From Plumapathes pennacea (Eukaryota > Cnidaria > Anthozoa > Antipatharia > Myriopathidae): DNA of 64,000 bases. The translations under genes were made by a program, and so were the position numbers. Positions 727 to 30,368 of the stretch are shown here, piece by piece. The stretch lies in NCBI GenBank assembly GCA_964036295.1, contig OZ038465.1, positions 5,752,667 to 5,816,666 of the forward strand. The letters are read 5' to 3'. The notes under the pieces were generated by a model that saw only the letters and a program-made list of their open reading frames with translations, was not told where the DNA came from and made no database searches. The stretch's first letter is position 1. The number at the start of each line of letters is the position of its first letter.

Positions 727-733
727 TATAAAT
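727..733 (+). promoter_or_regulatory. TATA box, GFP-like unit 1
   Basis: A TATAAAT element is followed about 45 bp later by the splice-donor consensus GTAAGT at 776, and by a second GTAAGT at 912. The element is kept in all five units and in the truncated sixth. Its role as core promoter is inferred. Confidence 0.6.
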
Positions 734-911
734 GGTCTATTTCGCTCAGCCAATCCGCGTGCACCTAATCATAAAGTAAGTGACATGCGGATTAGTAACC
801 TTCCTTTTCAAACGGTGGCAAACAAATCTCAATTGCTGTAGTCGAACTGCCAGGCACACGTACTGCTTTGCCCGACTGTGTTCAGGAGTAAACGGTGTAG
901 CTCGCTGAAAA

Positions 912-1113
912 GTAAGTTGAGTCGAATATTCACTAATTCACTATCATTAACCAAGAAGTGCAAAATATACCTGTGACTTATGAACGACACCTTACGCTCA
1001 TGTTAAGGAATAACTTCAGGCCGTCTGCTTTTCGCAACTTTGAGATAGACATGCAAGTCCTGCTTCGTGCCTTACTGCCCATGGGCAGTGCAGTGTGTGT
1101 GTGTGTGTGTACA

Positions 1114-1149
<36 letters not shown>

Positions 1150-1316
1150 GTCAGTGTAACAATCAGTGTGACTGTGCGGCGTCCAGAACCTTTCCTCCAA
1201 TAGGACGTAAACGAAAGCTAGACATACACTTAGTAAAAAAGAAACAGTCTTCTACCACGGTTTCGACAGTTCGGTGTTGCAAGGTTCTTACAACATTTTA
1301 ATGTGGTGACTTTCAG
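912..1316 (+). other. Predicted 5'UTR intron of GFP-like unit 1, containing (GT)n
   Basis: The donor AAAA|GTAAGT at 912 and the acceptor GACTTTCAG ending at 1316 define a ~405 bp intron. An alternative donor of the same strength lies at 776. The acceptor ends ten bases before the first in-frame ATG, so the upstream exon is probably non-coding. The intron contains a (GT)n plus (GTAT)n microsatellite at about 1093-1149. Equivalent acceptors end at 4069, 6807, 9567 and 12310. Confidence 0.6.
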
Positions 1317-1326
1317 CAATATACCG

Positions 1327-1965
1327 ATGGAATGCAAAGTACCAGTGGAATTACGCCACCAGACCGTCATCAGCGGCACTGCTAACGGAAAACAGTTTCG
1401 TTTAGCAGGAGAAGGGGTGGGGCGTCCTTACGATGGCAAGCTTAGCTCGTTGCTGAAATCGAGCACTGGCCCTCTTCACATATCCATGCATCTTCTGGAT
1501 ATCGTGGCCATTTTTGGCTACCCCACATACAGCAACTATCACGAGGATACCAAAGACCTATTCAAGATCTCGAACGGTTATGAATACGAAAGAGACATCA
1601 AGTATGAAAATGGAGGCCACATGAAAACGCTGCACAAGATCACTCGCCATTCCGACCACTTGTCTGGGGACTTCAAGGTACTAGAGTGCAGCGTGCAAGC
1701 CCCAGAGCTGGAAGCTATCGAGCCCATCGTGGAGACGTTCATCCCAGCTGGCCCTGGCAAGATCGACAGCCAAGCCGTGCTAGCCTGGCGCAAAAAGGGA
1801 GGAGGCTACTTCACTGCGCGTTGTGAGAGTCAGTACCGCCTTAATCACAACGAAAGTCTGCCCCACCTTCAGTTCCGCGTGGTACACTTCACCACCAACC
1901 ACAGCCAGGAGGTGCTAGATCAGAAGGAGAGCCTGCATGTGATTCGTCATTTGCCTGGCTTGTAA
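1327..1965 (+). CDS. GFP-like protein, copy 1, with Phe in place of the chromophore Tyr
   Basis: The 212-residue product belongs to the GFP beta-barrel family and has the usual anthozoan length. The diagnostic stretch is NGKQFRLAGEGVGRPYDG at residues 20-37. Aligned without gaps from the Gly-Pro at residues 48-49 to Tyr71, the chromophore triad falls on Ile62-Phe63-Gly64, where known family members have X-Tyr-Gly. The equivalents of GFP Arg96 (Arg89, in YERDIKYENGG) and Glu222 (Glu201) are present. A two-residue gap follows Lys80. The frame is open upstream to a GTG at 1303, but a splice acceptor ends at 1316, so ATG 1327 is the likely start. The coding region has no intron. AATAAA signals lie at 2316 and 2323. 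A normal fluorescent p-HBI chromophore is not expected; whether a Phe-based chromophore matures is unknown. Confidence 0.92.
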   Translation: MECKVPVELRHQTVISGTANGKQFRLAGEGVGRPYDGKLSSLLKSSTGPLHISMHLLDIVAIFGYPTYSNYHEDTKDLFKISNGYEYERDIKYENGGHMKTLHKITRHSDHLSGDFKVLECSVQAPELEAIEPIVETFIPAGPGKIDSQAVLAWRKKGGGYFTARCESQYRLNHNESLPHLQFRVVHFTTNHSQEVLDQKESLHVIRHLPGL

Positions 1966-2315
1966 GCCGGAAGATACGGCTGCCATATCCCATTAGCGCT
2001 AATGTGTTCAGTAAAAGATCCGTTTTGCATTTAATTTGCTTGGAATAGATTTAATACGGATCGAGGTAGTTATCTTAGTGTAATCGAATAGACTGTAGAG
2101 AAACAAATTGAGTGCGATGTGGTATACGAGCATTCAAAGCTAATGCATGTTCTACTGTTCATACATTGCCCATAATAGATGCATGACAAGTAAGATATTT
2201 TGTGAGATCACGTTAAGTTTGGAACAGCTAGTAGGCCTGCATGTTTACACTTATTTTAAAAACAGGACTGTCCTCGTTGCACGTACTTATTGAAGTGTGT
2301 ATCAGTAACGAACTA

Positions 2316-2328
2316 AATAAAAAATAAA
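2316..2328 (+). promoter_or_regulatory. Tandem AATAAA polyadenylation signals, unit 1
   Basis: Two AATAAA hexamers start at 2316 and 2323, about 350 bases after the stop codon. They recur at the same relative place in the other units (near 5069, 7807, 10567 and 13314). Confidence 0.6.
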
Positions 2329-3461
2329 ATCTGTGCAATGTGAGGCTGATTTGAAAAGAGGATAAACTCCGGTAATTGTTTGCTTGCAGAAACTTCTTTA
2401 TTTATTCATTGACAGCAGAATTAAATGATTCAGATAGCTGTAGGTAATTCTTCGTTTCAAATATTTACGGCGATCAGAAGATGTGAAGAATCTGCTTTCA
2501 ACCAAGCGCGAACTGCTTTCCGTATCCTCCTTGCCCAACCATACCCCTCGTTCCAAGAACCAATCCCGAGAAACAACAGTTTCCATTCCACTGTTCTAAA
2601 GTTGAATTATCTCATCGAGTTATATCAAACGAACCCTGTCTGAAACTTTCCGCTTCAACTCACGCATACTATGCCGGATCGAAACCGACCATTGAAATTG
2701 ATCCGTTTCCCGAGAATCTGTGTGGCAAACAATAAAGGTCCAGACGTCGACCGCAAACGGATAGCGATGTGTGCTACTGGTATTACTTCCTACAAGAGAT
2801 GTTTTATTTTTCCCTCTACGCTTCAGAATGAAATCTCGAACTACCTAAAACACTCATTCCAGCTACCATCAATTTTGACTACGCAAAAAAGTGGGGGAGG
2901 GGGGTGATTGGGGGGGGGGGGGGCTAAAGCTAAAGATAAACCCCCAGCGCCTCCCCCTGCGCGATCCCTGAACCATGAAAATGTTGAATTCCTGAAGTGT
3001 CAAATGAAACTACTAATGACCAAGCAAAAGCAAGCTCTTAGTGAATACACAGTAATAGTATTGTTCACGTTCTTGAGCATAGTTCATGTTGTTTTCCCTC
3101 TCTAAGTCTCATTTAAAAAGCGCGGAAGGGATTGTGATAAAATCTGATGCATGGCAGAAGTCACGCGCTAGACAAGATCAGTCGAGTACCCTCTTGGTGG
3201 AAACAGATGTTTCGCATATCAGTACTATGACACAAAGAAATGGTTTTGATCATAAATGAAGGCATTGCATAGGTGGCAACGATTCTGATAAGTGGCAATT
3301 TTGCAGTGGTATCAGTGTGGCAGTGCTAAAAATAACACACTTTACCGTGAAAGACCGGATGTTGTCAATAGACCTTGCAGCTTAAGTAGTTTGTTCTCAA
3401 TTACCCAGAAAGAAAATTGTTGTTATTTTCCGTCCTCCAGATTGGCTGCATTCGTATGATG

Positions 3462-3468
3462 TATAAAT
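3462..3468 (+). promoter_or_regulatory. TATA box, GFP-like unit 2
   Basis: TATAAAT stands in the same context as in unit 1 and is followed by both GTAAGT donors. Confidence 0.6.
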
Positions 3469-3827
3469 GGTCTATTTCGCTCAGCCAATCCGCGTGCACC
3501 TAATCATAAAGTAAGTGACATGCGGATCAGTAACTTTCCTTGTTAGACGGTGGCAAACAAATATCAATTGCTCTAGTCGAACTGCCAGGCACACGTACTG
3601 CTTTGCCCGACTGTGTTCAGGAGTAAACGGTGTAGCTCGCTGAAAAGTAAGTTGAGTCGAATATTCACTAATTCACTATCATTAACTAAGAAGTGCAAAA
3701 TATACCTGTGAGTTATAAACGACACCTTACGCTCATGTTAAGGAATAACTTCAGGCCGTCTGCTTTTCGCAACTTTGAGATAGACATGCAAGCCCTGCTT
3801 CGTGCTTACTGCCCATGGGCAGTGCAA

Positions 3828-3831
<4 letters not shown>

Positions 3832-3891
<60 letters not shown>

Positions 3892-3915
3892 TATATATAT
3901 GTATGTATGTATGTA
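3832..3915 (+). repeat. (GT)n/(GTAT)n microsatellite, unit 2 intron
   Basis: A long GT run is followed by ATATAT and GTAT repeats inside the predicted 5'UTR intron. It belongs to the long class shared with unit 4. Confidence 0.9.
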
Positions 3916-4079
3916 GAGTCAGTGTAACAATCAGTGTGACTGTGCGGCGTCCAGAACCTTTCCTCCAATGCTAGACATACACTTAGTACAAAAGACACAG
4001 TCTTCTACCACGGTTTCGACAGTTCGGTGTTGCAAGGTTCTTACAACATTTTAATGTGGTGACTTTCAGCAATATACCG

Positions 4080-4718
4080 ATGGAATGCAAAGTACCAGTG
4101 GAATTACGCCACCAGACCGTCATCAGCGGCACTGCTAACGGAAAACAGTTTCGTTTAGCAGGAGAAGGGGTGGGGCGTCCTTACGATGGCAAGCTTAGCT
4201 CGTTGTTGAAATCGAGCACTGGCCCTCTTCACATATCCATGCATCTTCTGGATATCGTGGCCATTTTTGGCTACCCCACATACAGCAACTATCACGAGGA
4301 TACCAAAGACCTATTCAAGATCTCGAACGGTTATGAATACGAAAGAGACATCAAGTATGAAAATGGAGGCCACATGAAAACGCTGCACAAGATCACTCGC
4401 CATTCCGACCACTTGTCTGGGGACTTCAAGGTACTAGAGTGCAGCGTGCAAGCCCCAGAGCTGGAAGCTATCGAGCCCATCGTGGAGACGTTCATCCCAG
4501 CTGGCCCTGGCAAGATCGACAGCCAAGCCGTGCTAGCCTGGCGCAAAAAGGGAGGAGGCTACTTCACTGCGCGTTGTGAGAGTCAGTACCGCCTTAATCA
4601 CAACGAAAGTCTGCCCCACCTTCAGTTCCGCGTGGTACACTTCACCACCAACCACAGCCAGGAGGTGCTAGATCAGAAGGAGAGCCTGCATGTGATTCGT
4701 CATTTGCCTGGCTTGTAA
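4080..4718 (+). CDS. GFP-like protein, copy 2 (identical product)
   Basis: The 212-residue product is identical to copy 1, including Ile62-Phe63-Gly64, Arg89 and Glu201. One synonymous change is visible at Leu43, which is TTG here and in copy 4 but CTG in copies 1, 3 and 5. The splice acceptor ends at 4069 and ATG 4080 is the chosen start. The 3' flank has CCCATCAGC where the other middle copies have CCCATTAGC. A possible function is as for copy 1. Confidence 0.92.
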   Translation: MECKVPVELRHQTVISGTANGKQFRLAGEGVGRPYDGKLSSLLKSSTGPLHISMHLLDIVAIFGYPTYSNYHEDTKDLFKISNGYEYERDIKYENGGHMKTLHKITRHSDHLSGDFKVLECSVQAPELEAIEPIVETFIPAGPGKIDSQAVLAWRKKGGGYFTARCESQYRLNHNESLPHLQFRVVHFTTNHSQEVLDQKESLHVIRHLPGL

Positions 4719-6223
4719 GCCGGAAGATACGGCTGCCATATCCCATCAGCGCTAATGTGTTCAGTAAAAGATCCGTTTTGCATTTAATTTGCTTGGAATA
4801 GATTTAATACGGATCGAGGTAGTTATCTTAGTGTAATCGAATAGACTGTAGAGAAACAAATTGAGTGCGATGTGGTATACGAGCATTCAAAGCTAATGCA
4901 TGTTCTACTGTTCATACATTGCCCATAATAGATGCATGACAAGTAAGATATTTTGTGAGATCACGTTAAGTTTGGAACAGCTAGTAGGCCTGCATGTTTA
5001 CACTTATTTTAAAAACAGGACTGTCCTCGTTGCACGTACTTATTGAAGTGTGTATCAGTAACGAACTAAATAAAAAATAAAATCTGTGCAATGTGAGGCT
5101 GATTTGAAAAGAGGATAAACTCCGGTAATTGTTTGCTTGCAGAAACTTCTTTATTTATTCATTGACAGCAGAATTAAATGATTCAGATAGCTGTAGGTAA
5201 TTCTTCGTTTCAAATATTTACGGCGATCAGAAGATGTGAAGAATCTGCTTTCAACCAAGCGCGAACTGCTTTCCGTATCCTCCTTGCCCAACCATACCCC
5301 TCGTTCCAAGAACCAATCCCGAGAAACAACAGTTTCCATTCCACTGTTCTAAAGTTGAATTATCTCATCGAGTTATATCAAACGAACCCTGTCTGAAACT
5401 TTCCGCTTCAACTCACGCATACTATGCCGGATCGAAACCGACCATTGAAATTGATCCGTTTCCCGAGAATCTGTGTGGCAAACAATAAAGGTCCAGACGT
5501 CGACCGCAAACGGATAGCGATGTGTGCTACTGGTATTACTTCCTACAAGAGATGTTTTATTTTTCCCTCTACGCTTCAGAATGAAATCTCGAACTACCTA
5601 AAACACTCATTCCAGCTACCATCAATTTTGACTACGCAAAAAAGTGGGGGAGGGGGGTGATTGGGGGGGGGGGGGGGGGGGGGGGCTAAAGCTAAAGATA
5701 AACCCCCAGCGCCTCCCCCTGCGCGATCCCTGAACCATGAAAATGTTGAATTCCTGAAGTGTCAAATGAAACTACTAATGACCAAGCAAAAGCAAGCTCT
5801 TAGTGAATACACAGTAATAGTATTGTTCACGTTCTTGAGCATAGTTCATGTTGTTTTCCCTCTCTAAGTCTCATTTAAAAAGCGCGGAAGGGATTGTGAT
5901 AAAATCTGATGCATGGCAGAAGTCACGCGCTAGACAAGATCAGTCGAGTACCCTCTTGGTGGAAACAGATGTTTCGCATATCAGTACTATGACACAAAGA
6001 AATGGTTTTGATCATAAATGAAGGCATTGCATAGGTGGCAACGATTCTGATAAGTGGCAATTTTGCAGTGGTATCAGTGTGGCAGTGCTAAAAATAACAC
6101 ACTTTACCGTGAAAGACCGGATGTTGTCAATAGACCTTGCAGCTTAAGTAGTTTGTTCTCAATTACCCAGAAAGAAAATTGTTGTTATTTTCCGTCCTCC
6201 AGATTGGCTGCATTCGTATGATG

Positions 6224-6230
6224 TATAAAT
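6224..6230 (+). promoter_or_regulatory. TATA box, GFP-like unit 3
   Basis: TATAAAT stands in the same promoter context as in the other units. Confidence 0.6.
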
Positions 6231-6588
6231 GGTCTATTTCGCTCAGCCAATCCGCGTGCACCTAATCATAAAGTAAGTGACATGCGGATCAGTAACTTTC
6301 CTTGTTAGACGGTGGCAAACAAATATCAATTGCTCTAGTCGAACTGCCAGGCACACGTACTGCTTTGCCCGACTGTGTTCAGGAGTAAACGGTGTAGCTC
6401 GCTGAAAAGTAAGTTGAGTCGAATATTCACTAATTCACTATCATTAACTAAGAAGTGCAAAATATACCTGTGAGTTATAAACGACACCTTACGCTCATGT
6501 TAAGGAATAACTTCAGGCCGTCTGCTTTTCGCAACTTTGAGATAGACATGCAAGCCCTGCTTCGTGCTTACTGCCCATGGGCAGTGCA

Positions 6589-6592
<4 letters not shown>

Positions 6593-6625
<33 letters not shown>

Positions 6626-6653
6626 TATATATATGTATGTATGTATGTATGTA
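6593..6653 (+). repeat. (GT)n/(GTAT)n microsatellite, unit 3 intron
   Basis: A short GT run is followed by four GTAT-type repeats. The short class is shared with unit 5. Confidence 0.9.
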
Positions 6654-6817
6654 GAGTCAGTGTAACAATCAGTGTGACTGTGCGGCGTCCAGAACCTTTC
6701 CTCCAATGCTAGACATACACTTAGTACAAAAGACACAGTCTTCTACCACGGTTTCGACAGTTCGGTGTTGCAAGGTTCTTACAACATTTTAATGTGGTGA
6801 CTTTCAGCAATATACCG

Positions 6818-7456
6818 ATGGAATGCAAAGTACCAGTGGAATTACGCCACCAGACCGTCATCAGCGGCACTGCTAACGGAAAACAGTTTCGTTTAGCAGG
6901 AGAAGGGGTGGGGCGTCCTTACGATGGCAAGCTTAGCTCGTTGCTGAAATCGAGCACTGGCCCTCTTCACATATCCATGCATCTTCTGGATATCGTGGCC
7001 ATTTTTGGCTACCCCACATACAGCAACTATCACGAGGATACCAAAGACCTATTCAAGATCTCGAACGGTTATGAATACGAAAGAGACATCAAGTATGAAA
7101 ATGGAGGCCACATGAAAACGCTGCACAAGATCACTCGCCATTCCGACCACTTGTCTGGGGACTTCAAGGTACTAGAGTGCAGCGTGCAAGCCCCAGAGCT
7201 GGAAGCTATCGAGCCCATCGTGGAGACGTTCATCCCAGCTGGCCCTGGCAAGATCGACAGCCAAGCCGTGCTAGCCTGGCGCAAAAAGGGAGGAGGCTAC
7301 TTCACTGCGCGTTGTGAGAGTCAGTACCGCCTTAATCACAACGAAAGTCTGCCCCACCTTCAGTTCCGCGTGGTACACTTCACCACCAACCACAGCCAGG
7401 AGGTGCTAGATCAGAAGGAGAGCCTGCATGTGATTCGTCATTTGCCTGGCTTGTAA
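6818..7456 (+). CDS. GFP-like protein, copy 3 (identical product)
   Basis: The 212-residue product is identical to copy 1. Leu43 is CTG, as in copies 1 and 5. The splice acceptor ends at 6807, and AATAAA signals lie near 7807. The coding region is a single exon and no frame damage is seen. Confidence 0.92.
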   Translation: MECKVPVELRHQTVISGTANGKQFRLAGEGVGRPYDGKLSSLLKSSTGPLHISMHLLDIVAIFGYPTYSNYHEDTKDLFKISNGYEYERDIKYENGGHMKTLHKITRHSDHLSGDFKVLECSVQAPELEAIEPIVETFIPAGPGKIDSQAVLAWRKKGGGYFTARCESQYRLNHNESLPHLQFRVVHFTTNHSQEVLDQKESLHVIRHLPGL

Positions 7457-8951
7457 GCCGGAAGATACGGCTGCCATATCCCATTAGCGCTAATGTGTTC
7501 AGTAAAAGATCCGTTTTGCATTTAATTTGCTTGGAATAGATTTAATACGGATCGAGGTAGTTATCTTAGTGTAATCGAATAGACTGTAGAGAAACAAATT
7601 GAGTGCGATGTGGTATACGAGCATTCAAAGCTAATGCATGTTCTACTGTTCATACATTGCCCATAATAGATGCATGACAAGTAAGATATTTTGTGAGATC
7701 ACGTTAAGTTTGGAACAGCTAGTAGGCCTGCATGTTTACACTTATTTTAAAAACAGGACTGTCCTCGTTGCACGTACTTATTGAAGTGTGTATCAGTAAC
7801 GAACTAAATAAAAAATAAAATCTGTGCAATGTGAGGCTGATTTGAAAAGAGGATAAACTCCGGTAATTGTTTGCTTGCAGAAACTTCTTTATTTATTCAT
7901 TGACAGCAGAATTAAATGATTCAGATAGCTGTAGGTAATTCTTCGTTTCAAATATTTACGGCGATCAGAAGATGTGAAGAATCTGCTTTCAACCAAGCGC
8001 GAACTGCTTTCCGTATCCTCCTTGCCCAACCATACCCCTCGTTCCAAGAACCAATCCCGAGAAACAACAGTTTCCATTCCACTGTTCTAAAGTTGAATTA
8101 TCTCATCGAGTTATATCAAACGAACCCTGTCTGAAACTTTCCGCTTCAACTCACGCATACTATGCCGGATCGAAACCGACCATTGAAATTGATCCGTTTC
8201 CCGAGAATCTGTGTGGCAAACAATAAAGGTCCAGACGTCGACCGCAAACGGATAGCGATGTGTGCTACTGGTATTACTTCCTACAAGAGATGTTTTATTT
8301 TTCCCTCTACGCTTCAGAATGAAATCTCGAACTACCTAAAACACTCATTCCAGCTACCATCAATTTTGACTACGCAAAAAAGTGGGGGAGGGGGGTGATT
8401 GGGGGGGGGGGGGCTAAAGCTAAAGATAAACCCCCAGCGCCTCCCCCTGCGCGATCCCTGAACCATGAAAATGTTGAATTCCTGAAGTGTCAAATGAAAC
8501 TACTAATGACCAAGCAAAAGCAAGCTCTTAGTGAATACACAGTAATAGTATTGTTCACGTTCTTGAGCATAGTTCATGTTGTTTTCCCTCTCTAAGTCTC
8601 ATTTAAAAAGCGCGGAAGGGATTGTGATAAAATCTGATGCATGGCAGAAGTCACGCGCTAGACAAGATCAGTCGAGTACCCTCTTGGTGGAAACAGATGT
8701 TTCGCATATCAGTACTATGACACAAAGAAATGGTTTTGATCATAAATGAAGGCATTGCATAGGTGGCAACGATTCTGATAAGTGGCAATTTTGCAGTGGT
8801 ATCAGTGTGGCAGTGCTAAAAATAACACACTTTACCGTGAAAGACCGGATGTTGTCAATAGACCTTGCAGCTTAAGTAGTTTGTTCTCAATTACCCAGAA
8901 AGAAAATTGTTGTTATTTTCCGTCCTCCAGATTGGCTGCATTCGTATGATG

Positions 8952-8958
8952 TATAAAT
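8952..8958 (+). promoter_or_regulatory. TATA box, GFP-like unit 4
   Basis: TATAAAT stands in the same promoter context as in the other units. Confidence 0.6.
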
Positions 8959-9317
8959 GGTCTATTTCGCTCAGCCAATCCGCGTGCACCTAATCATAAA
9001 GTAAGTGACATGCGGATCAGTAACTTTCCTTGTTAGACGGTGGCAAACAAATATCAATTGCTCTAGTCGAACTGCCAGGCACACGTACTGCTTTGCCCGA
9101 CTGTGTTCAGGAGTAAACGGTGTAGCTCGCTGAAAAGTAAGTTGAGTCGAATATTCACTAATTCACTATCATTAACTAAGAAGTGCAAAATATACCTGTG
9201 AGTTATAAACGACACCTTACGCTCATGTTAAGGAATAACTTCAGGCCGTCTGCTTTTCGCAACTTTGAGATAGACATGCAAGCCCTGCTTCGTGCTTACT
9301 GCCCATGGGCAGTGCAA

Positions 9318-9319
<2 letters not shown>

Positions 9320-9389
<70 letters not shown>

Positions 9390-9413
9390 TATATATATGT
9401 ATGTATGTATGTA
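9320..9413 (+). repeat. (GT)n/(GTAT)n microsatellite, unit 4 intron
   Basis: This is the longest GT run of the array. It is preceded by CAATGCG, the variant shared with unit 2; units 3 and 5 have CAGTGCG. Confidence 0.9.
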
Positions 9414-9577
9414 GAGTCAGTGTAACAATCAGTGTGACTGTGCGGCGTCCAGAACCTTTCCTCCAATGCTAGACATACACTTAGTACAAAAGACACAGTC
9501 TTCTACCACGGTTTCGACAGTTCGGTGTTGCAAGGTTCTTACAACATTTTAATGTGGTGACTTTCAGCAATATACCG

Positions 9578-10216
9578 ATGGAATGCAAAGTACCAGTGGA
9601 ATTACGCCACCAGACCGTCATCAGCGGCACTGCTAACGGAAAACAGTTTCGTTTAGCAGGAGAAGGGGTGGGGCGTCCTTACGATGGCAAGCTTAGCTCG
9701 TTGTTGAAATCGAGCACTGGCCCTCTTCACATATCCATGCATCTTCTGGATATCGTGGCCATTTTTGGCTACCCCACATACAGCAACTATCACGAGGATA
9801 CCAAAGACCTATTCAAGATCTCGAACGGTTATGAATACGAAAGAGACATCAAGTATGAAAATGGAGGCCACATGAAAACGCTGCACAAGATCACTCGCCA
9901 TTCCGACCACTTGTCTGGGGACTTCAAGGTACTAGAGTGCAGCGTGCAAGCCCCAGAGCTGGAAGCTATCGAGCCCATCGTGGAGACGTTCATCCCAGCT
10001 GGCCCTGGCAAGATCGACAGCCAAGCCGTGCTAGCCTGGCGCAAAAAGGGAGGAGGCTACTTCACTGCGCGTTGTGAGAGTCAGTACCGCCTTAATCACA
10101 ACGAAAGTCTGCCCCACCTTCAGTTCCGCGTGGTACACTTCACCACCAACCACAGCCAGGAGGTGCTAGATCAGAAGGAGAGCCTGCATGTGATTCGTCA
10201 TTTGCCTGGCTTGTAA
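9578..10216 (+). CDS. GFP-like protein, copy 4 (identical product)
   Basis: The 212-residue product is identical to copy 1. It carries the TTG Leu43 codon shared with copy 2. The splice acceptor ends at 9567, and AATAAA signals lie near 10567. The frame is intact. Confidence 0.92.
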   Translation: MECKVPVELRHQTVISGTANGKQFRLAGEGVGRPYDGKLSSLLKSSTGPLHISMHLLDIVAIFGYPTYSNYHEDTKDLFKISNGYEYERDIKYENGGHMKTLHKITRHSDHLSGDFKVLECSVQAPELEAIEPIVETFIPAGPGKIDSQAVLAWRKKGGGYFTARCESQYRLNHNESLPHLQFRVVHFTTNHSQEVLDQKESLHVIRHLPGL

Positions 10217-11718
10217 GCCGGAAGATACGGCTGCCATATCCCATTAGCGCTAATGTGTTCAGTAAAAGATCCGTTTTGCATTTAATTTGCTTGGAATAGA
10301 TTTAATACGGATCGAGGTAGTTATCTTAGTGTAATCGAATAGACTGTAGAGAAACAAATTGAGTGCGATGTGGTATACGAGCATTCAAAGCTAATGCATG
10401 TTCTACTGTTCATACATTGCCCATAATAGATGCATGACAAGTAAGATATTTTGTGAGATCACGTTAAGTTTGGAACAGCTAGTAGGCCTGCATGTTTACA
10501 CTTATTTTAAAAACAGGACTGTCCTCGTTGCACGTACTTATTGAAGTGTGTATCAGTAACGAACTAAATAAAAAATAAAATCTGTGCAATGTGAGGCTGA
10601 TTTGAAAAGAGGATAAACTCCGGTAATTGTTTGCTTGCAGAAACTTCTTTATTTATTCATTGACAGCAGAATTAAATGATTCAGATAGCTGTAGGTAATT
10701 CTTCGTTTCAAATATTTACGGCGATCAGAAGATGTGAAGAATCTGCTTTCAACCAAGCGCGAACTGCTTTCCGTATCCTCCTTGCCCAACCATACCCCTC
10801 GTTCCAAGAACCAATCCCGAGAAACAACAGTTTCCATTCCACTGTTCTAAAGTTGAATTATCTCATCGAGTTATATCAAACGAACCCTGTCTGAAACTTT
10901 CCGCTTCAACTCACGCATACTATGCCGGATCGAAACCGACCATTGAAATTGATCCGTTTCCCGAGAATCTGTGTGGCAAACAATAAAGGTCCAGACGTCG
11001 ACCGCAAACGGATAGCGATGTGTGCTACTGGTATTACTTCCTACAAGAGATGTTTTATTTTTCCCTCTACGCTTCAGAATGAAATCTCGAACTACCTAAA
11101 ACACTCATTCCAGCTACCATCAATTTTGACTACGCAAAAAAGTGGGGGAGGGGGGTGATTGGGGGGGGGGGGGGGGGGGCTAAAGCTAAAGATAAACCCC
11201 CAGCGCCTCCCCCTGCGCGATCCCTGAACCATGAAAATGTTGAATTCCTGAAGTGTCAAATGAAACTACTAATGACCAAGCAAAAGCAAGCTCTTAGTGA
11301 ATACACAGTAATAGTATTGTTCACGTTCTTGAGCATAGTTCATGTTGTTTTCCCTCTCTAAGTCTCATTTAAAAAGCGCGGAAGGGATTGTGATAAAATC
11401 TGATGCATGGCAGAAGTCACGCGCTTAGACAAGATCAGTCGAGTACCCTCTTGGTGGAAACAGATGTTTCGCATATCAGTACTATGACACAAAGAAATGG
11501 TTTTGATCATAAATGAAGGCATTGCATAGGTGGCAACGATTCTGATAAGTGGCAATTTTGCAGTGGTATCAGTGTGGCAGTGCTAAAAATAACACACTTT
11601 ACCGTGAAAGACCGGATGTTGTCAATAGACCTTGCAGCTTAAGTAGTTTGTTCTCAATTACCCAGAAAGAAAATTGTTGTTATTTTCCGTCCTCCAGATT
11701 GGCTGCATTCGTATGATG

Positions 11719-11725
11719 TATAAAT
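11719..11725 (+). promoter_or_regulatory. TATA box, GFP-like unit 5
   Basis: TATAAAT stands in the same promoter context as in the other units. Confidence 0.6.
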
Positions 11726-12320
11726 GGTCTATTTCGCTCAGCCAATCCGCGTGCACCTAATCATAAAGTAAGTGACATGCGGATCAGTAACTTTCCTTGT
11801 TAGACGGTGGCAAACAAATATCAATTGCTCTAGTCGAACTGCCAGGCACACGTACTGCTTTGCCCGACTGTGTTCAGGAGTAAACGGTGTAGCTCGCTGA
11901 AAAGTAAGTTGAGTCGAATATTCACTAATTCACTATCATTAACTAAGAAGTGCAAAATATACCTGTGAGTTATAAACGACACCTTACGCTCATGTTAAGG
12001 AATAACTTCAGGCCGTCTGCTTTTCGCAACTTTGAGATAGACATGCAAGCCCTGCTTCGTGCTTACTGCCCATGGGCAGTGCAGTGCGTGTGTGTGTGTG
12101 TGTGTGTGTGTGTACGTATATATATGTATGTATGTATATATGTATGTATGTATGTAGAGTCAGTGTAACAATCAGTGTGACTGTGCGGCGTCCAGAACCT
12201 TTCCTCCAATGCTAGACATACACTTAGTACAAAAGACACAGTCTTCTACCACGGTTTCGACAGTTCGGTGTTGCAAGGTTCTTACAACATTTTAATGTGG
12301 TGACTTTCAGCAATATACCG

Positions 12321-12959
12321 ATGGAATGCAAAGTACCAGTGGAATTACGCCACCAGACCGTCATCAGCGGCACTGCTAACGGAAAACAGTTTCGTTTAGC
12401 AGGAGAAGGGGTGGGGCGTCCTTACGATGGCAAGCTTAGCTCGTTGCTGAAATCGAGCACTGGCCCTCTTCACATATCCATGCATCTTCTGGATATCGTG
12501 GCCATTTTTGGCTACCCCACATACAGCAACTATCACGAGGATACCAAAGACCTATTCAAGATCTCGAACGGTTATGAATACGAAAGAGACATCAAGTATG
12601 AAAATGGAGGCCACATGAAAACGCTGCACAAGATCACTCGCCATTCCGACCACTTGTCTGGGGACTTCAAGGTACTAGAGTGCAGCGTGCAAGCCCCAGA
12701 GCTGGAAGCTATCGAGCCCATCGTGGAGACGTTCATCCCAGCTGGCCCTGGCAAGATCGACAGCCAAGCCGTGCTAGCCTGGCGCAAAAAGGGAGGAGGC
12801 TACTTCACTGCGCGTTGTGAGAGTCAGTACCGCCTTAATCACAACGAAAGTCTGCCCCACCTTCAGTTCCGCGTGGTACACTTCACCACCAACCACAGCC
12901 AGGAGGTGCTAGATCAGAAGGAGAGCCTGCATGTGATTCGTCATTTGCCTGGCTTGTAA
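12321..12959 (+). CDS. GFP-like protein, copy 5 (identical product, array end)
   Basis: The 212-residue product is identical to copy 1. The coding exon matches the others exactly at protein level. The 3' flank has many small differences not seen in copies 1-4, such as an extra GCAT near 13272. It stops matching at about 13387. This copy therefore probably holds the original 3' junction of the locus. AATAAA signals lie at 13314 and just after. Confidence 0.92.
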   Translation: MECKVPVELRHQTVISGTANGKQFRLAGEGVGRPYDGKLSSLLKSSTGPLHISMHLLDIVAIFGYPTYSNYHEDTKDLFKISNGYEYERDIKYENGGHMKTLHKITRHSDHLSGDFKVLECSVQAPELEAIEPIVETFIPAGPGKIDSQAVLAWRKKGGGYFTARCESQYRLNHNESLPHLQFRVVHFTTNHSQEVLDQKESLHVIRHLPGL

Positions 12960-13387
12960 GCCGGAAGATACGCCTGCCATATCACATTGGCGCTAATGTG
13001 TTCAGTAAAAGATCCGTCTTGCATTTAATTTGCTTGGAATAGATTTAATACGGATCGAGGTAGTTATCTTAGTGTAATTGAATAGACTGTAGAGAAACAA
13101 ATTGAGTGCGATGTGGTATACGAGCATTCAAAGCTAATGCATGTTGTACTGTTCATACATTGCCCATAATAGATGCATGACAAGTAAGATATTTTGTGAG
13201 ATCACGTTAAGTTTGGAACAGCTAGTAGGCCTGCATGTTTACACTTATTTTAAAAACAGGACTGTCCTCTTTGCATGCACGTACTAATTGAAGTGTGTAT
13301 CAGTAACGAACTAAATAAAAAATAAAATCTGTGCAATGTGAGGCTGATTTGAAAAGAGGATAAACTCCGGTAATTGTTTGCTTGCAG

Positions 13388-14225
13388 AAGCCAATTCAGA
13401 AACAAAATTTGTCAAAGATAAAAAATTAAACATATCAAACTCTTCCCATACAAATGGGAACATTTGTTATTTTCTAGTCCCAATATCACGCGGCCGAAAG
13501 CGGCACGATTGATTTCAAAATGGCGGATAGATTCAAGAGGACTGAATAACCGAATTGGTTTGTTTAGAAGACAAAATCTGATAAAAATATCAGAAAACCT
13601 TGTGAGATTGAAGTAATTTATGACAACAAGGTTCGCCAGCAGTAGGAGTTCCACTATAAAGACTGAACTTTGAAATTCGATGATTGGTGGCGGTTCGATG
13701 TGGAGGCTCTTCAGTGTTTCCCATTCCAGCGTGTGCAAAAATGTTTGTCCTGAGCAGCGAGCCGTTTAATGATCAAGCAATATGATTCTTTGGTCAGACT
13801 TCCCGTGAAACTAAAATAAAGCTGTGGGCTATAACGCCATGTAGATTCAAACATGACATGCATGGCTGTTATCTGCATTTATACTGATCATGTTTCCTCT
13901 CTGAATTTTACAAGGAGTTTATATTTAAAGAATGCTTTTCACGCTGGCTCGCAAACTGTCCACACAAAATGTGAGACACCTGATTTATTCTACCTATTTC
14001 CCCCTCCTTCCATTGTTTTAACTTGAATAACAATAAATTGCAAGCTGTTTGAAAACAGAAATGTAGCACATCCTCCAATGTTTCACATTGCACATGGCTT
14101 CCATGTGCCATCCTATTCTATAATGTGGCCTGAGATTAAATGCTTTGCACATAAAAAAGTGGAAACTATTGACAGATATACAGTTTACCCATTTGTCAGC
14201 TGCTGCTTCAAGAGGCTTATGGTAA
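13388..14225 (+). other. Gene-poor spacer
   Basis: AT-rich sequence follows the end of the array. A 108-codon open frame on the minus strand (13412-13738) has no recognisable domain. I see no supported gene. Confidence 0.5.
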
Positions 14226-14375
14226 TTTGCGAAACGAAACAAACGAAACGAAACAACGAAACAGCGAAACAACGAAACAAAAAGTGGTAATTTGCGAAAC
14301 GAAACAACGAAACAGCGAAACAACGAAACAACGAAACAAAAAGTGGTAATCTGCGAAACAACGAAACAAGATATG
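14226..14375 (+). repeat. GAAAC/GAAACAAC simple repeat
   Basis: Three blocks of GAAACGAAACAAC-type repeats are each introduced by GTAATTTGCGAAAC or a close variant. The open frames across this stretch, rich in Phe, Val and Ser, are artefacts of the repeat. Confidence 0.9.
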
Positions 14376-14703
14376 TTAATTTGCCAGACAGGCGGCAGGG
14401 GGGGATGGAAGCTTCCCACCCCCCACCCCTAAGTCCTCTATTGTAAAAAGCCATGGTTACATTGACGTGCGAGCAAGTATGTCCTTCAGATTACTTTCTT
14501 ACCGTCACACCAGCGGTTAAACCCGCTCTTAAACTTGTTCTTCACTACACGACTTGGAGTGACTGCGAGATTCGCAAATTTGCATGTGAGCTCTCGAACC
14601 GCTTATATTCCCGTGGGACTCGTTCGAATCTTCGCGACAACAACTGTCGAGACAAGAGACCACACGCGACTCAGGCTTATTTGAATAAAGGAAATGAAAC
14701 TTG

Positions 14704-14928
14704 GGCCCCGTCCACACTAGTCCGGATAAATTTGAAAACGGATATTTATTTATCCGTTTTGGCCTCCCGTCCACACTAAGACTGACCGAAAACGGATATT
14801 TTCGAAAACGCGTTTCAGTGTGGACAGCAAAAACGACTCGAAAACGGTAGTGTGGACGGAAAACTTTCGATGCGTTTTCATACGAAACCTCCGTTTTCAA
14901 ATTTATCCGGATTAGTGTGGACGGGGCC
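14704..14928. mobile_element. MITE, ~225 bp, terminal repeats GGCCCCGTCCACACTA
   Basis: Inverted termini of about 38 bp begin GGCCCCGTCCACACTA and continue into TCCGGATAAATTTGAAAACGG. The inside repeats GTGTGGAC and CGTTTTC motifs. TTG flanks both sides and could be a 3 bp target duplication. No coding capacity is present. A decayed relative starts at 26569. Confidence 0.8.
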
Positions 14929-15192
14929 TTGGGTTGTTGTATTTATCTGCCTTGATCTAGTCTGTGGTTGCAAGGGATAAATACTTACCAGCGACAGGCC
15001 TTATTTCAATTTTTTCCGGTAATTTTAAAAGAGAAATTGTTCTGTCAAATGTGCAATGTGTCAAATTATGACCCTTTTTGTTAACTTGAGCGAACTTGAC
15101 AACTCAACTCTCACGCCCCGCAGACATCGGGCAGATTTTCATCAGAATTTATTTTTTTGCTCTTGTGCAATACCCGTCGTGTGCAATACCCG

Positions 15193-16256
15193 CCGTTTCC
15201 CGAGAGTCCGTGTGGCAGACACTAAAGATCCAGACGTCGACCGCAAACGGATAGCGATGTGTGCTACTGGTATTACTTCCTACAAGAGATGTTTTATTTT
15301 TCCCTCTACGCTGCAGAATGAAATCTCGAACTACCTAAAACACTCATTCCAGCTACCATCAATTTTGACTGCGCAAAAAAGTGGGGGAGAGGGGTGATTG
15401 GGGGGGGGGGGGGGGCTAAAGCTAAAGCTAAACCCCCAGCGCCTCCCCCTGCGAGATCCCTGAACCACGAATGTGTTGAATTCCTGAAGTGTCAAATGAA
15501 ACTACTAATGACCAAGCAAAAGCAAGCTCTTAGTGAATACACAGTAATAGTATTGTTCTCGTTCTTGAGCATAGTTCATGTTGTTTTCCCTCTCTAAGTC
15601 TCATTTAAAAAGCGCGGAAGGGATTGTGATAAAATCTGATGCATGGCGGAAGTCACGCGCTAGACAAGATCAGTCGAGTACCCTCTTGGTGGAAACAGAT
15701 GTTTCGCATATCAGTACTATGACACAAGGAAATGGTTTTGATCATAAATGAAGGCATTGCAAAGGACTGGCAACGATTCTGATAAGTGGCAATTTTGCAG
15801 TGGTATCAGTGTTGCAGTGCTAAAAATAACACACTTTACCGTGAAAGACCGGATGTTGTCAATAGACCTTGCAGCTTAAGTAGTTTGTTCTCAATTACCC
15901 AGAAAGAAAATTTGTTGTTATTTTCCGTCCTCCAGATTGGCTGCATTCGTATGATGTATAAATGGTCTATTTCGCTCAGCCAATCCGCGTGCACCTAATC
16001 ATAAAGTAAGTGACATGCGGATCAGTAACCTTCCTTGTTAGACGGTGGCAAACAAATATCAATTGCTGTAGTCGAACTGCCAGGCACACGTACTGCTTTG
16101 CCCGACTGTGTTCAGGAGTAAACGGTGTAGCTCGCTGAAAAGTAAGTTGAGTCGAATATTCACTAATTCACTATCATTAACCAAGAACTGCAAAATATAC
16201 CTGTGAGATATGAACGACACCTTACGCTCATGTTAAGGAATAACTTCAGGCCGTCT
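15193..16256 (+). pseudogene. Truncated sixth GFP-like unit (promoter side only)
   Basis: This stretch matches the array units from about 2704 to 3765, with more divergence than units 2-5 show among themselves. It keeps the poly-G run, the TATA box (15957) and both GTAAGT donors (16006 and 16142). It stops abruptly before the (GT)n tract, the splice acceptor and the coding exon. Several variants match unit 1 rather than units 2-5, so it may reflect the older unit sequence. Confidence 0.9.
15957..15963 (+). promoter_or_regulatory. Orphan TATA box of the truncated GFP-like unit
   Basis: TATAAAT lies in the conserved promoter context but without its coding exon downstream. Confidence 0.5.
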
Positions 16257-17437
16257 CGTAGTTCCCAAACCAAAAGTTTGAAACGTGAGAAAACAGGAGA
16301 AAAAGTTAACGGTTAACGGCAGCTCGCAAATGGTATTAACAGGCTAGCTTACACTGGCTCTCCAGTCCGAGGAAAATGGGACCAGAAATGCGGGAGGGAT
16401 GAGGCATGATTGTTTCTGAATGACTTCACCCCCGTCCGTAGCATTTGTCACGCAGTAAATCCCTAGTGGGGGTGGGTATAAATTTTTCTCATTTGAAGTT
16501 TAGGAACTACAGAGGTCCAGCGCCGACACAGAAGCGAGGGGGCTTTGTTGCAAATCGCTGAATCTGTGCCAGGTAGGTGTCTTTATTCCTTAATGGTCCT
16601 GTTAATTGATTAAAAGTACCTTACGTCCAGCATCACTGTAGGTTGCCACTGAAGTAGTACTCGGCTATGTTTTTACGGCAGTTCTCAAAGACTTCTGTCG
16701 ATCTGTGAATAGAATCTTCTCTTTCTTTAGTGCATCCATTCCTCAGTTTTCTGCATCCAGATGAATGACGCATATTGGTCTACACTTAATCACTTCTTCT
16801 CTACATAAATAAGCAGCGATTTTCGCTCGATTTTACGGCATGGCATGGTTTGCCACGAATGACATGGCGGATTAAAAGGCGAATCTCCTGTGAGCAAGAA
16901 CTGTTAGTAATGAGTCGGTACAAATGCGAAACTGAAAGAAAAGATTTGGCCACTTAAGACTGAGAAATATTAATTGGGCAGAGAAGGACAAGTTCTAATG
17001 ATGTCAAGCGAGTAAAGAAAATTGAAAGAGACTTCGACGTTTTGTTTGGCGGTGAACAAATGAAGCAGCACTGAAAGCGGATCATTGAAAGGAACACGAA
17101 CACAAGAGTAGTATGAAAGAGCCATGCAGAGAGAAAACATGTACTCCACCGAGAGGGTACTCGATCGACTGATCATGTCTAGCGCGTGACTTCCGGCCAT
17201 GCATGCCTGTCTAAGTTTACAGATATGGCTAACCGTTTGGGTGTATTCACTATTTTACTTGCTTGCTTTTTTCATTCCAAAACGTGAATTTTTAGATTTG
17301 GTATACTCGATCGCTTTCGGTTGGGAAGTGAGTCGCGGAGGGAATGTAACTGCTGAAACTAAGGTTTTCCTAACCCCACCCTTTCCGGGCATACCCTGGA
17401 CATTTAACCCTCTCCCTTCCCCGAGTGGCCAACTAAG
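16257..17437. other. Spacer with possible unassigned first exon
   Basis: No supported coding region is visible. GGTATAAATTTTT near 16477 and a CCAG|GTAGGT donor-like site near 16570 could mark a 5' exon, but nothing downstream confirms it. Confidence 0.3.
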
Positions 17438-17873
17438 GGCCTGTTTACAAGGAGGTAGGGTAACCCTAGCATTAGGGTAGCCCTGTCACTAGGGTCAAAG
17501 ATAGCCCAGGTTTACAAGCAAAATGAAACAGCCAGGGCCCCGAGTCAACTTCATTCACATGGCACATCATCTGCCATGATTCTTGTGATTATATGAGCCA
17601 AAGGGTCTGGGAACCAGCATTAACTTGTCCCAGGTGGGCGAGTTATCCCTAGCAAACCATTTGCAAGTGCAAAACTTCACCTGGGTGCTAGGGTAACCCT
17701 ACCTCTCCACTCAGGTAACCCTATCACTAGGGTAAGCCGGGTACCCGGGTTATGTTCTCCCGCCTGCTTGTAAACATGCTAATTAAAAAAAGAGGAAATG
17801 TTAAAGCGCTAGGGTAACCCTCGTGCCAGAGTAACCCTGGTGCTAGGCCTACCCTACCTCCTTGTAAATGTAG
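17438..17873. mobile_element. MITE-like element with AGGGTAACCCTAG termini
   Basis: The left end GGCCTGTTTACAAGGAGG, running into TAGGGTAACCCTAGC, is mirrored by TAGGCCTACCCTACCTCC, running into TTGTAAA, at the right. Further TAGGGTAACCCTA motifs lie inside. No coding capacity is seen. Confidence 0.65.
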
Positions 17874-18359
17874 CAGTGCGAAGATCAAAGACTTCTACAG
17901 CAAATCTGTAACTGTGGACTTAACTTTATTCCCGAGCTTCTGCAAAATGGCTTTACAGAGGGAATACCCAAGTCTAACTCTCAACTAATCGAATGTTACA
18001 CAGATAGATATAGCATACAGGATAATAGGGCTATTGATTGCAAGCATTACAAAGGATCATAGGCATTTCCTAGGCGTTTCCGAATTAGATGAATAGAGAA
18101 TAGAATCATTGTACAGTAATGAATGGAAACAAAGATAAAATTGATGATGTAACACAAATCTTCAGACGGGACGTGACTGCAGTGTCTGCACGGAATATGT
18201 GACTACACGGAATCTGATGTGACTACACAGAATGTAATCCTATTACATAAACAGGCTCTAAATACTAATCATTTCCCCCTGGTTATTTCTGAGGAACAAA
18301 GATCACCCAGGGGGTGGGGCATTTGAACGACATTTTGGTGAGGGGGTGGGACCAAATCA

Positions 18360-18845
18360 GTAAACAAAGATTGGAGGGGTCATGATCAAACAGCCACAAT
18401 CCATGAAATTACTGGGAGTCAACATGGATGACCAACTGAATTTCAGCGAGCACATACGAGTTGTATGCAAAAAGTCAGGTTGCATGGTTCCAGGGAATGC
18501 GAAACTACAGCTATACAATTCAGCTATTCTACCACACAAGACCTACTGCCACATGATCTGGCACTTCTGCTTGGTGGATCAGCTTACATCCTCAGAAATA
18601 CAGATTTTAGAATGCCTGGTTGATATACGGGAAGCACTATGTCAGATATTTGGGGCCACACTTGTGGTCTAAACTCTCAACCACAGAAAGAAACATTTCA
18701 AATTTAAACTCATTTAAACAAGCTGTAAGAAAAAAAGACGTTACATCTCTTGAAAACGGCAACTGTAAAAACTGCAAACTACTGTATGTAACAGCTAGGT
18801 GCCAGAATCCAGGAACACTTGGAGATAGGGCAGAACTGAAGTAAG
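18360..18845 (+). pseudogene. LINE reverse transcriptase 3'-end remnant
   Basis: Two overlapping frames give the C-terminal part of a non-LTR reverse transcriptase. LLGVNMDDQLNFSEHI is followed by KLQLYNSAILPHKTYCHMIW, and in another frame by LWSKLSTTERN and LNSFKQAVRKKD. A frameshift near 18640 and small deletions separate the blocks. The catalytic domain is absent. A (TACTAC)-like tail lies near 19155-19183. Confidence 0.8.
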
Positions 18846-19189
18846 ACCTAATTAGCATAATTTTAAACTTTAAGAAATATTGTAACTTTAAAATTTAAAA
18901 TTTTAAGGAATATTGTATATAATTGTACATTTTGTAACTATTTTTTAATGTTTATAATAATTTTTACTATTACCACACACCAAACACATCACTTTGCTGA
19001 CAACTTACCACACTTAATTACAACAGTAGAAATTTTGAAGTAAGTTAACTTTAGTTTTTGATAATAGTATTGTAGTTACTGTTTATAATGAAGTGTATAA
19101 GTTGTGTCCCCAATTAGCACTAGCACTAGAACAAATAGACACAGTAATAAAGTTTACTACTGCTACTACCACTACTACAGAATTGAAGT

Positions 19190-20334
19190 GCTGGCTGTCA
19201 TAAAGGCCTTCAGGTAAAGCTGAATGTGCTGCAGAAACTGGAGACAAAATATTATTCAGCAAACATGCTCAATCAGCAGCTAAAGTCACTTGCCTGTGAA
19301 ACGTAAACAACCAGCTCTTCAGCAAAACTGGAGGCTTTTAATTCATCAAGTAATACATACCAGACTGAGCAGCATAAGCTTACACGTTCAAGGAAACATT
19401 CGCCCGGAATGCTTACACAAAATATCTGCACTCACGGCCGACTGAAATGTTCAGTAATATAAATATTCAAACTCACCTATTCTTTCTGTCATAGTTTTAG
19501 CTCTCTTCTAGCAAAGAAAACAACATCAAAATGCTTTTTTCTTCGTCTATGTCTTAAATGAAAAGTGCAGCCTCACACATTACAAAAATATTGATTGCGA
19601 TGTGACAAGCAAAACATTTCAGCTGTTCAATTCCTACCAACTTGCAAAAGTTTGCTTTCCTTCGTCATAAAGTCTCGGAGTTTCAACACAAACGGCGTGG
19701 CAGCGAAAAACTCAAAGCTGTTGGCGTACGTTCTTGAGCTCAAGTTGGCTCCACGATCAATGCCTCAACTGTCGTTTTGCTTGCCATTTTCCCAGCTTGC
19801 AAGCTTTCCTGCCATACAATGGAACGATATCTGGCCAGATGTTTTATCCTTTCGTCGAACTGCTTGGCCGTGTATCCGCAATTTCTCTTAGAAAATCACT
19901 GATCTAGCTTCGCTCCCTTCTCATCAAAATGTTTTGAGTTTGAGAGCTTAGCCACTGGGCCTCACTGATCATGACCAAGCCCCTATTGGCCTGGAATGGA
20001 GAATAATGTCCATGTTGGATCTGCAAGAGTAAAATAAGTATGTGAATTTCCAACAATTGCCTGTTCACATGCTGCATAACCTACAATGGACATTTTTGGA
20101 AATTGTCACAGATTAATGACCGGTAAACCTAAAATCTCATAAAATAACCATTATAATTAAATATGTTTGAAGTATGACTATTTATTCAGTGATCAGTTTG
20201 TGATTAGCAAAAATCTTGTTGCTCATACATGAAATCTCTATGTAAGAAATAATACTGGTACAGACATACATACATGTACATGTAATGCCAATATCTCATC
20301 AATTTTTTCAAAGATAAATAAAAAAAATTAAAAC

Positions 20335-20366
<32 letters not shown>

Positions 20367-20680
20367 ACAGATTTTATGCATACAATTTAACAGCTTCTTT
20401 CAACTTTCCAAAGACATGTGTGATACAGTATGAAGTACAGAATAAACACATGAAACCTTGCCCAGAAATAACCTGAATTGATGATTTTGTCTGTTTCATT
20501 ATATAATGTTATGTTTCATGGGCTTAGGCTTCTAAAATGCTGTAACAACAGTTTTATCATGCCTTGAGAAGCTCAAACCATCCTCCTGCTAACTTAACAC
20601 AACATAAATTTCCATTAACTGGACAGGAAGTAATGCTGCTACAGGGTGTAATATTCACCAGACAGGAGAGCAATGAGCAA
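19190..20680. other. AT-rich spacer without a supported gene
   Basis: I see no recognisable gene. An AAAAC-rich simple repeat lies at about 20325-20366. A 98-codon frame at 19595-19891 has no identifiable domain. Confidence 0.5.
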
Positions 20681-20689
20681 TGCACAAGA

Positions 20690-22350: not shown

Positions 22351-22354
22351 GAGG

Positions 22355-22357
22355 ATA

Positions 22358-22388
<31 letters not shown>

Positions 22389-22390
22389 TG
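22355..22390. repeat. (AT)n followed by poly-T
   Basis: About 13 AT dinucleotides pass into a T run at the distal edge of the minisatellite. Confidence 0.9.
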
Positions 22391-22576
22391 AGACTGGACT
22401 TAGAAGAAAAATATTTATGGCTGAAATACATGTACTATGAAAGAAAGATGGAAATCTACACTTACCAGCGAATGGCGCAAAATCCGGCAATGCGAATTAG
22501 GAGCTTTCGAGCTGAGTGCACCAAACAAAGAAAACCTCACTTAGATATTTAGACGAGAGCACACCTGACAAGTTTT

Positions 22577-22809
22577 AAGGTGGTGTTACACTGGTCAATT
22601 TGCAACGACGATTTGCAACGCCGATTTGCTCCAAACTCACGCAACGGTGTTGCAAGTTTTTGAATCGCTTTCAAAAACTTGCAACGCGTTGCAGCACTGC
22701 AAACATCGCGAAAAATCGTTCCAACGCGGTGTTACACCTCAACGATTTTTAGCGCAACATCGCATCGTTGCAAATCGTCGTTGCAAATCGACCAGTGTAA
22801 CACCACCTT
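22577..22809. mobile_element. MITE, ~233 bp, termini AAGGTGGTGTTACACTGGTC
   Basis: The left terminus AAGGTGGTGTTACACTGGTC, followed by CAACGACGATTTGCAACG, is mirrored at the right by CGTTGCAAATCGTCGTTG and GACCAGTGTAACACCACCTT. The interior is a chain of partly self-complementary TTGCAACG motifs. No coding capacity is seen. Confidence 0.8.
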
Positions 22810-23097
22810 TAGATATCATTGTCGCATTTGCAGTATGAAAATAGTTTTTCGCTTTGGCCGAGGCGTCCGTCGTCAATTACATATCCCATAAACACGAACT
22901 ACGAAAAGCAAACCAAAGTTATGTCACAAGAAATATAAGAGAAGTTATATTTACCTTTTGTGTTGCAAAACAGCTGTTGTTCAGTGAACAAACAGTGAAA
23001 AACTCTATCAACAAACGTTGTCGACGCGTGCCCCGGCGCGGTTAACGGTTTTTCTTTTGACCACGATGTAAGCTGGTCAGCGCTTTCAATTAAATTG

Positions 23098-25518: not shown

Positions 25519-25555
<37 letters not shown>

Positions 25556-26100: not shown

Positions 26101-26109
26101 AAAGAAACC

Positions 26110-26565: not shown

Positions 26566-26568
26566 GGC

Positions 26569-26750: not shown

Positions 26751-26784
26751 TAAGGTGCGGCTAGCCACAATAGATAATTAGTGA

Positions 26785-30350: not shown

Positions 30351-30368
30351 TGTCTTCATCAAAATGAA

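Follow-up and report, generated by a model that had tools for sequence, protein, structure and literature searches.

A GFP-family gene with Ile-Phe-Gly at the chromophore position, amplified in a palindromic array of the black coral Plumapathes pennacea

Introduction

Can a member of the green fluorescent protein (GFP) family that has phenylalanine in the place of the chromophore tyrosine still be a protein for light? The question is raised by a stretch of 64,000 nucleotides of the black coral Plumapathes pennacea, hereafter the window, which comprises bases 5752667-5816666 of contig OZ038465.1 (C4) in an assembly of 290 Mb and 24 contigs. The window contains five units in tandem, each about 2.75 kb long and with one open reading frame (ORF) of 212 amino acids, and the encoded protein has Ile-Phe-Gly at the position of the X-Tyr-Gly triad that is typical of the fluorescent proteins and chromoproteins proper. 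The function of coral fluorescent proteins is still argued. A genome that keeps nine identical copies of its only detectable family member, and in which this member is devoid of a phenolate chromophore, would allow the optical and the non-optical functions of the barrel to be told apart.

The reading preferred here, at a probability of roughly 0.45, is that of a single-coding-exon, Phe-type member of the GFP family, a barrel that absorbs in the ultraviolet (UV) or violet without visible colour, and which was amplified in a genome that seems to have no Tyr-type fluorescent protein left. Each of the five ORFs reads from ATG to stop and the protein is the same in all of them, as an earlier note made from the letters of the window had claimed, with exact coordinates and exact residue numbers (Gly48-Pro49, Ile62-Phe63-Gly64, Tyr71, Arg89 and Glu201). 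The coding regions and the triad are found at the following positions of the window:

1327..1965, plus strand: copy 1, coding region of the 212-amino-acid GFP-family protein with the Ile-Phe-Gly triad
1510..1518, plus strand: ATT TTT GGC, the codons of Ile62-Phe63-Gly64 of copy 1, at the chromophore position
4080..4718, plus strand: copy 2, protein identical to that of copy 1
6818..7456, plus strand: copy 3, protein identical to that of copy 1
9578..10216, plus strand: copy 4, protein identical to that of copy 1
12321..12959, plus strand: copy 5, protein identical to that of copy 1

Results

Membership of the GFP family

In a phmmer search of the sequences of the Protein Data Bank (PDB), the best match was eqFP611 (E 1.9e-15), and Dronpa (1e-14) and the copepod ppluGFP2 (1.9e-14) were also recovered. 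At E <= 1 the search matched 955 distinct PDB sequences, and many variants of the same proteins were found among the best 60 of these. The comparison with six reference proteins in hhalign gave a probability of 99.1% over residues 9-176, which, together with the phmmer result, supports the homology that the earlier note had proposed. The PDB search is independent of the reference sequences used in MAFFT, hhalign, the tree and the register test. Judged from these matches, the protein is a far-diverged homologue of the GFP family, and we infer that it folds as a GFP barrel.

The degree of divergence is seen in the MAFFT L-INS-i alignment, from which all of the column comparisons given below were taken, and in which the identity to ten references is 20-26%. 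For the seven anthozoan references the range is 22-26%, whereas these references share 50-72% with Dronpa. The likeness to the anthozoan fluorescent proteins and chromoproteins (eqFP611, Dronpa, DsRed; Pfam PF01353) extends over residues 9-176 at least and includes the glycine motif of the N-terminal part as well as Gly64 and Arg89, while the difference is the Phe found here in the place of the chromophore Tyr. A small tree of 11 proteins placed the sequence on a long branch beside the copepod and lancelet GFPs, with a support of 94/93 that was not starred, and placement with the anthozoans was not rejected in the same tree (approximately unbiased test, p 0.058). The copepod and lancelet proteins carry GYG (GYA in the lancelet GFPb1/b2) rather than the IFG found here.

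The nidogen G2 domain was also considered, and was ruled out given that PF01353 is the sole Pfam family listed at E <= 1. In viral contigs, 17 stretches fitted a pattern (1 of 8 scans) and none was a relative.

The chromophore position

The triad claimed by the earlier note was confirmed, given that Ile62-Phe63-Gly64 falls on X-Tyr-Gly in four out of five phmmer alignments inspected, in both of the MAFFT alignments (--auto and L-INS-i) and in hhalign. The same note had described the alignment from Gly48 to Tyr71 as ungapped, which holds for the four phmmer alignments (eqFP611, Dronpa, mRubyFT and a second Dronpa entry) and for MAFFT --auto, whereas L-INS-i and hhalign open a gap of one residue between Gly48 and Pro49 and leave Pro49-Tyr71 ungapped. 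The triad is not lined up in the fifth phmmer alignment, to ppluGFP2, a chain with a single X that is taken for the matured chromophore. All ten references have Tyr in the column of Phe63 and Gly in that of Gly64, and the pair Tyr-Gly is absent from the entire protein. The Phe codon and the triad are invariant across the 11 copies found in the genome (see below), each of which has Ile-Phe-Gly.

Catalytic residues and chromophore pocket

The arginine that catalyses maturation is better secured than the glutamate. Arg89, which the earlier note had matched to the catalytic Arg96, stands in a column with Arg in all ten references. Glu201 is found where that note had placed it, and it falls in the column of Glu222 in L-INS-i, but not in MAFFT --auto, and the hhalign alignment ends at residue 176. 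In a register test Glu201 scored best against all ten references, although shuffled tails equalled this score in 33% of 2000 trials, and best against the seven anthozoans, with shuffled tails equal in 46% of 2000 trials; against two bilaterian proteins, Gln199 scored above Glu201. The match to Glu222 is thus not secured.

Two of the residues that would surround the chromophore ring are also altered. In DsRed, the phenolate is contacted by Ser146 and Ser197. At the first of these positions the protein has Ile134, in a column that is S, N, T or C in all ten references. At the second it has Val186, in a column that is occupied in eight references, by H, S, T or R in seven of them and by L in the eighth. 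Aliphatic residues at these two sites fit a ring that lacks the hydroxyl group, and the pattern suggests, in an alignment of low identity, that the change from Tyr to Phe is old. Also unusual are Pro66, in a column that is Q, K, R, Y or I in the references, and, in the central stretch, Asp58 and Ile59.

A palindromic array of 11 copies

When the complete assembly was searched with the protein, 11 copies of the gene were recovered, nine of them full-length at 100% identity and two broken at residue 148-149. Six copies lie on the plus strand, and the other five, on the minus strand, are found to the left of the window. The count of five given by the earlier note is thus correct for the window, but not for the array, which the window cuts. 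The tandem copies of the window belong to one side of a palindrome, a feature that the earlier note could not have seen. This palindrome runs in three blocks from C4:5694157 to position 42912 of the window, with about 4 kb between the arms. In the outer block, C4:5694157-5727720 pairs with window positions 42912-9353 at 99.78% identity (33,583 alignment columns, 31 mismatches and 15 gap openings), which implies that the copies are either young or kept alike by conversion. The identity of the inner blocks is 98.8% and 98.2%. The right arm, of about 52 kb, holds extra sequence in comparison with the left arm, of about 45 kb. Two features of the window belong here:

841..42912, no strand: part of the right arm of the palindrome, the left arm being outside the window
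15193..16256, plus strand: a sixth, orphan copy of the unit's upstream region, which lacks the coding region

An ORF for a GNAT acetyltransferase is also found inside the outer block, at window positions 29367-29939.

The two broken copies, which are the innermost, have a common insertion of two bases at codon 148, which shifts the frame, and differ from one another at one coding site. They also carry five substitutions that are absent from the intact copies, three of which would be amino-acid replacements if the original frame were read, one of these at Pro66. The nine intact copies, on the other hand, have a single segregating site in 639 gap-free coding columns, which is synonymous (codon 43), in comparison with nine sites in 346 downstream columns (Fisher p 5e-4) and 13 sites in 508 upstream columns, with a GT repeat tract set aside (Fisher p 2e-4).

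Search for other fluorescent-protein genes

The assembly was also searched with Dronpa, ppluGFP2 and mRuby (E <= 10), and each of these queries returned only the 11 copies, with one further row, at E 3.1, from the ppluGFP2 query. With human carbonic anhydrase 2 as a control, 24 matches were obtained at 30-61% identity, of which two were nearly whole and the others exon-like pieces, the shortest of 33 amino acids. Given that the control recovers exon pieces, an exon-split Tyr-type protein would have been expected among the matches if it shared some 50% identity with the anthozoan queries. No Tyr-type paralogue thus seems to be left in the genome, a point that the earlier note could not have seen, and one that applies to a single assembly at the sensitivity stated, with a control taken from a different family. 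The two nearly whole matches of the control are intronless carbonic anhydrase reading frames, at C8:14806858-14807640 and C5:6678069-6678845, with exon-split relatives alongside.

Gene anatomy

The intact copies can be read from start to stop in one uninterrupted frame, in contrast with the seven family genes of Nematostella, which are given two to five exons (PMC2910727, table). The following features were found around copy 1, by match to consensus only:

727..732, plus strand: TATAAA, possible core promoter
912..1316, plus strand: predicted intron of the 5' untranslated region, with the donor GTAAGT at 912 and an acceptor TTTCAG ending at 1316
2316..2328, plus strand: AATAAA sites resembling poly(A) signals, at 2316 and 2323

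The acceptor ends ten bases before the ATG, and a second GTAAGT is found upstream of copy 1, at 776.

Discussion

Natural and engineered precedents

Precedents for the altered triad exist, and they temper the novelty of the gene as well as the view of the earlier note that the Tyr is essentially invariant. The same natural change from Tyr to Phe is described in 6 of 219 acroporid genome predictions, which have X-Phe-Gly (PMC8001845). The surveyed Acropora species carry 9-18 fluorescent-protein genes each, and Montipora and Astreopora two (PMC8001845), whereas no Tyr paralogue was found here. The triad is altered otherwise in the lancelet GFPb1/b2 (GYA), in three of the seven predicted genes of Nematostella, which lack it (PMC2910727, table), and in the fluorescent-protein-like proteins of ctenophores, family homologues that also lack X-Tyr-Gly (QTN in Mnemiopsis) and in which both R96 and E222 are substituted (PMC4997694). 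The black coral protein differs from this last type in that Gly64 and Arg89 are kept, and only the Tyr has changed for certain. A literature search on Antipatharia and fluorescent proteins gave no paper on black coral proteins, as far as titles tell.

Engineered proteins with X-Phe-Gly share the chromophore residue and demonstrate that a chromophore can be built with Phe and is capable of absorption or emission. Rtms5 Y67F, which contains an acylimine, has absorbance at 440 and 513 nm, while avGFP Y66F emits at 442 nm and Sirius at 424 nm (PMC3468514). These are point mutants of coloured parents, whereas the protein described here is natural and has diverged over its whole length.

A proposed Phe-type barrel absorbing in the UV or violet

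In the preferred reading, that of an amplified Phe-type barrel, Phe would have been fixed before the array grew, and the gene would subsequently have been amplified to nine intact, protein-identical copies in the palindromic array. Ile-Phe-Gly would probably still cyclise to a phenyl-type imidazolone absorbing in the near UV or violet, and the cyclised product may act as a screening pigment, or may simply be carried along with a redox-active barrel. The retention of Gly64 and Arg89 in a protein with only 20-26% identity to the references argues that the chemistry of the triad matters, and the chromophores formed by engineered X-Phe-Gly proteins support the possibility of a natural one. Whatever its function, the protein is probably not visibly coloured, which is in agreement with the optical or non-optical role, without a phenolate chromophore, that the earlier note had envisaged, an idea supported as an interpretation. 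A more specific version, in which a black coral lineage devoid of Tyr-type fluorescent proteins keeps an array member that matures to a UV or violet Ile-Phe-Gly chromophore, in a phenolate pocket rebuilt for a ring without the hydroxyl group, can be put forward only tentatively, at about one chance in three. If the triad does mature, the protein would represent an ultraviolet or violet GFP of natural origin, with an adapted pocket, and would be useful for the engineering of short-wavelength proteins.

Several observations weigh against the preferred reading. The score for PF01353 is 18.9 bits (E 0.0017), below the curated cut-off of 22, which is a reporting threshold and not a trait. AlphaFold2 on the single sequence gave a mean pLDDT of 34.3, and this value, together with a stretch after Cys121 that falls short of the references by six residues (L-INS-i and hhalign), makes the earlier statement that the barrel is kept an overstatement. 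Pro66, Asp58 and Ile59 may hinder maturation, and the role of Glu201 as the counterpart of Glu222 and general base is plausible but unproven. The segregating sites of the intact copies are also not independent, given that copies m1 and p5 account for 8 of the 9 sites found downstream, and copy p1 for all 13 of those found upstream when the repeat tract is set aside. The next 75 downstream columns contain no segregating site. As the sites thus represent few events, clustered by copy, gene conversion with diverged flanks explains the pattern as well as selection does, and the comparison of copies is weak evidence of selection. Finally, black corals are often deep-living, and UV screening would be of little use in such a habitat.

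Alternative explanations

The strongest alternative, a serious competitor that is nevertheless given somewhat less than an even chance, is a barrel that is kept without any chromophore, for a non-optical role such as peroxide scavenging, storage or binding, in the manner of the ctenophore proteins. Natural members without a working triad are known from the ctenophores and Nematostella, with the lancelet GYA in addition, and the replacement of the chromophore Tyr with Ala in three proteins of Acropora millepora resulted in better scavenging of H2O2 than in the wild types (PMC2752795), which indicates that a barrel can be active without a chromophore. Pro66, Asp58 and the unsure counterpart of Glu222 point in the same direction. 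On the other hand, Gly64 and Arg89 have been kept although roughly three quarters of the residues are different, which sets the protein apart from its ctenophore relatives, and an aromatic ring has been retained in the form of Phe. If the triad does not mature, the protein would be a natural null for light, pointing to a redox or binding role. On the sequence, the chromophore-free barrel is almost as likely as the UV or violet Phe chromophore.

A second alternative concerns the array rather than the triad. The mirror half may be an artefact of assembly, in which two haplotypes were joined head to head, and the true number of copies would then be about half, with the triad unaffected. This is unlikely, although the outer arms of 33.6 kb do differ by just the 31 mismatches and 15 gap openings given above, as the inner blocks differ by 1 to 2%, in comparison with 0.2% in the outer block, the right arm contains sequence that the left arm lacks, and the two frameshifted copies differ from one another at a coding site.

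Less probable still is a dying fluorescent protein, the copies of which were multiplied passively by the palindrome. The frameshift in two of the 11 copies, the high identity of the outer arms and the orphan upstream region speak for this, but nine of the copies are intact and encode an identical protein, and their diversity is 0.08% in the coding region, in comparison with 1.0% in the 346 downstream columns. Amino-acid changes, which three of the five substitutions in the frameshifted copies would cause in the original frame, are absent from the intact ones, although the numbers are small, and copy 1 has a TATA box together with splice-site and poly(A) consensus matches.

An ordinary fluorescent protein, with the triad misplaced here or with the Tyr restored by splicing to an unseen exon, is highly improbable, as the low identity to the references and the discordant ppluGFP2 alignment are outweighed by the agreement of the other four phmmer alignments, both MAFFT alignments and hhalign, by the absence of a Tyr-Gly pair, by a coding region that is uninterrupted in the intact copies, by the same triad in all 11 copies, and by a genome in which no other GFP-like exon was found.

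Neighbouring features and mitochondrial genome

Other features of the window include a satellite of 67-bp units at positions 20696-22336, an ORF for a retrotransposon integrase at 37666-38715 and a DUF4371 ORF at 47812-48675. Three adjoining single-frame ORFs of the CECR6/TMEM121 family are found at 59811-60677 (plus strand), 61447-62412 (minus strand) and 62835-63743 (minus strand).

Contig C24 is the mitochondrial genome, with 17,711 bp, 40.2% GC and all of the listed genes on one strand. Their order, in which the protein genes carry names assigned provisionally from their sequences, is 16S, cox3, cox1, nad4L, cox2, nad4, nad6, atp8, atp6, nad5 (with nad1 and nad3), a tRNA with the anticodon tca, nad2, 12S, cob and trnM.

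With this tRNA taken for trnW, the order is the one published for the Antipatharia, 16S-cox3-cox1-nad4L-cox2-nad4-nad6-atp8-atp6-nad5(nad1,nad3)-trnW-nad2-12S-cob-trnM (PMC11311739). The nad5 intron of C24 contains only nad1 and nad3, in contrast with the seven or more protein genes of most stony corals and the corallimorphs (PMC10167242), and this speaks against a stony coral or a corallimorph as the host. In the sea anemones, cob apparently lies between nad6 and 12S (PMC10167242), while the zoantharians have one tRNA and a mean A+T content of 53.7% (PMC10261974). The cox1 gene of C24 is split by an intron at about 5140-5997, the ORF of which is taken for a LAGLIDADG endonuclease.

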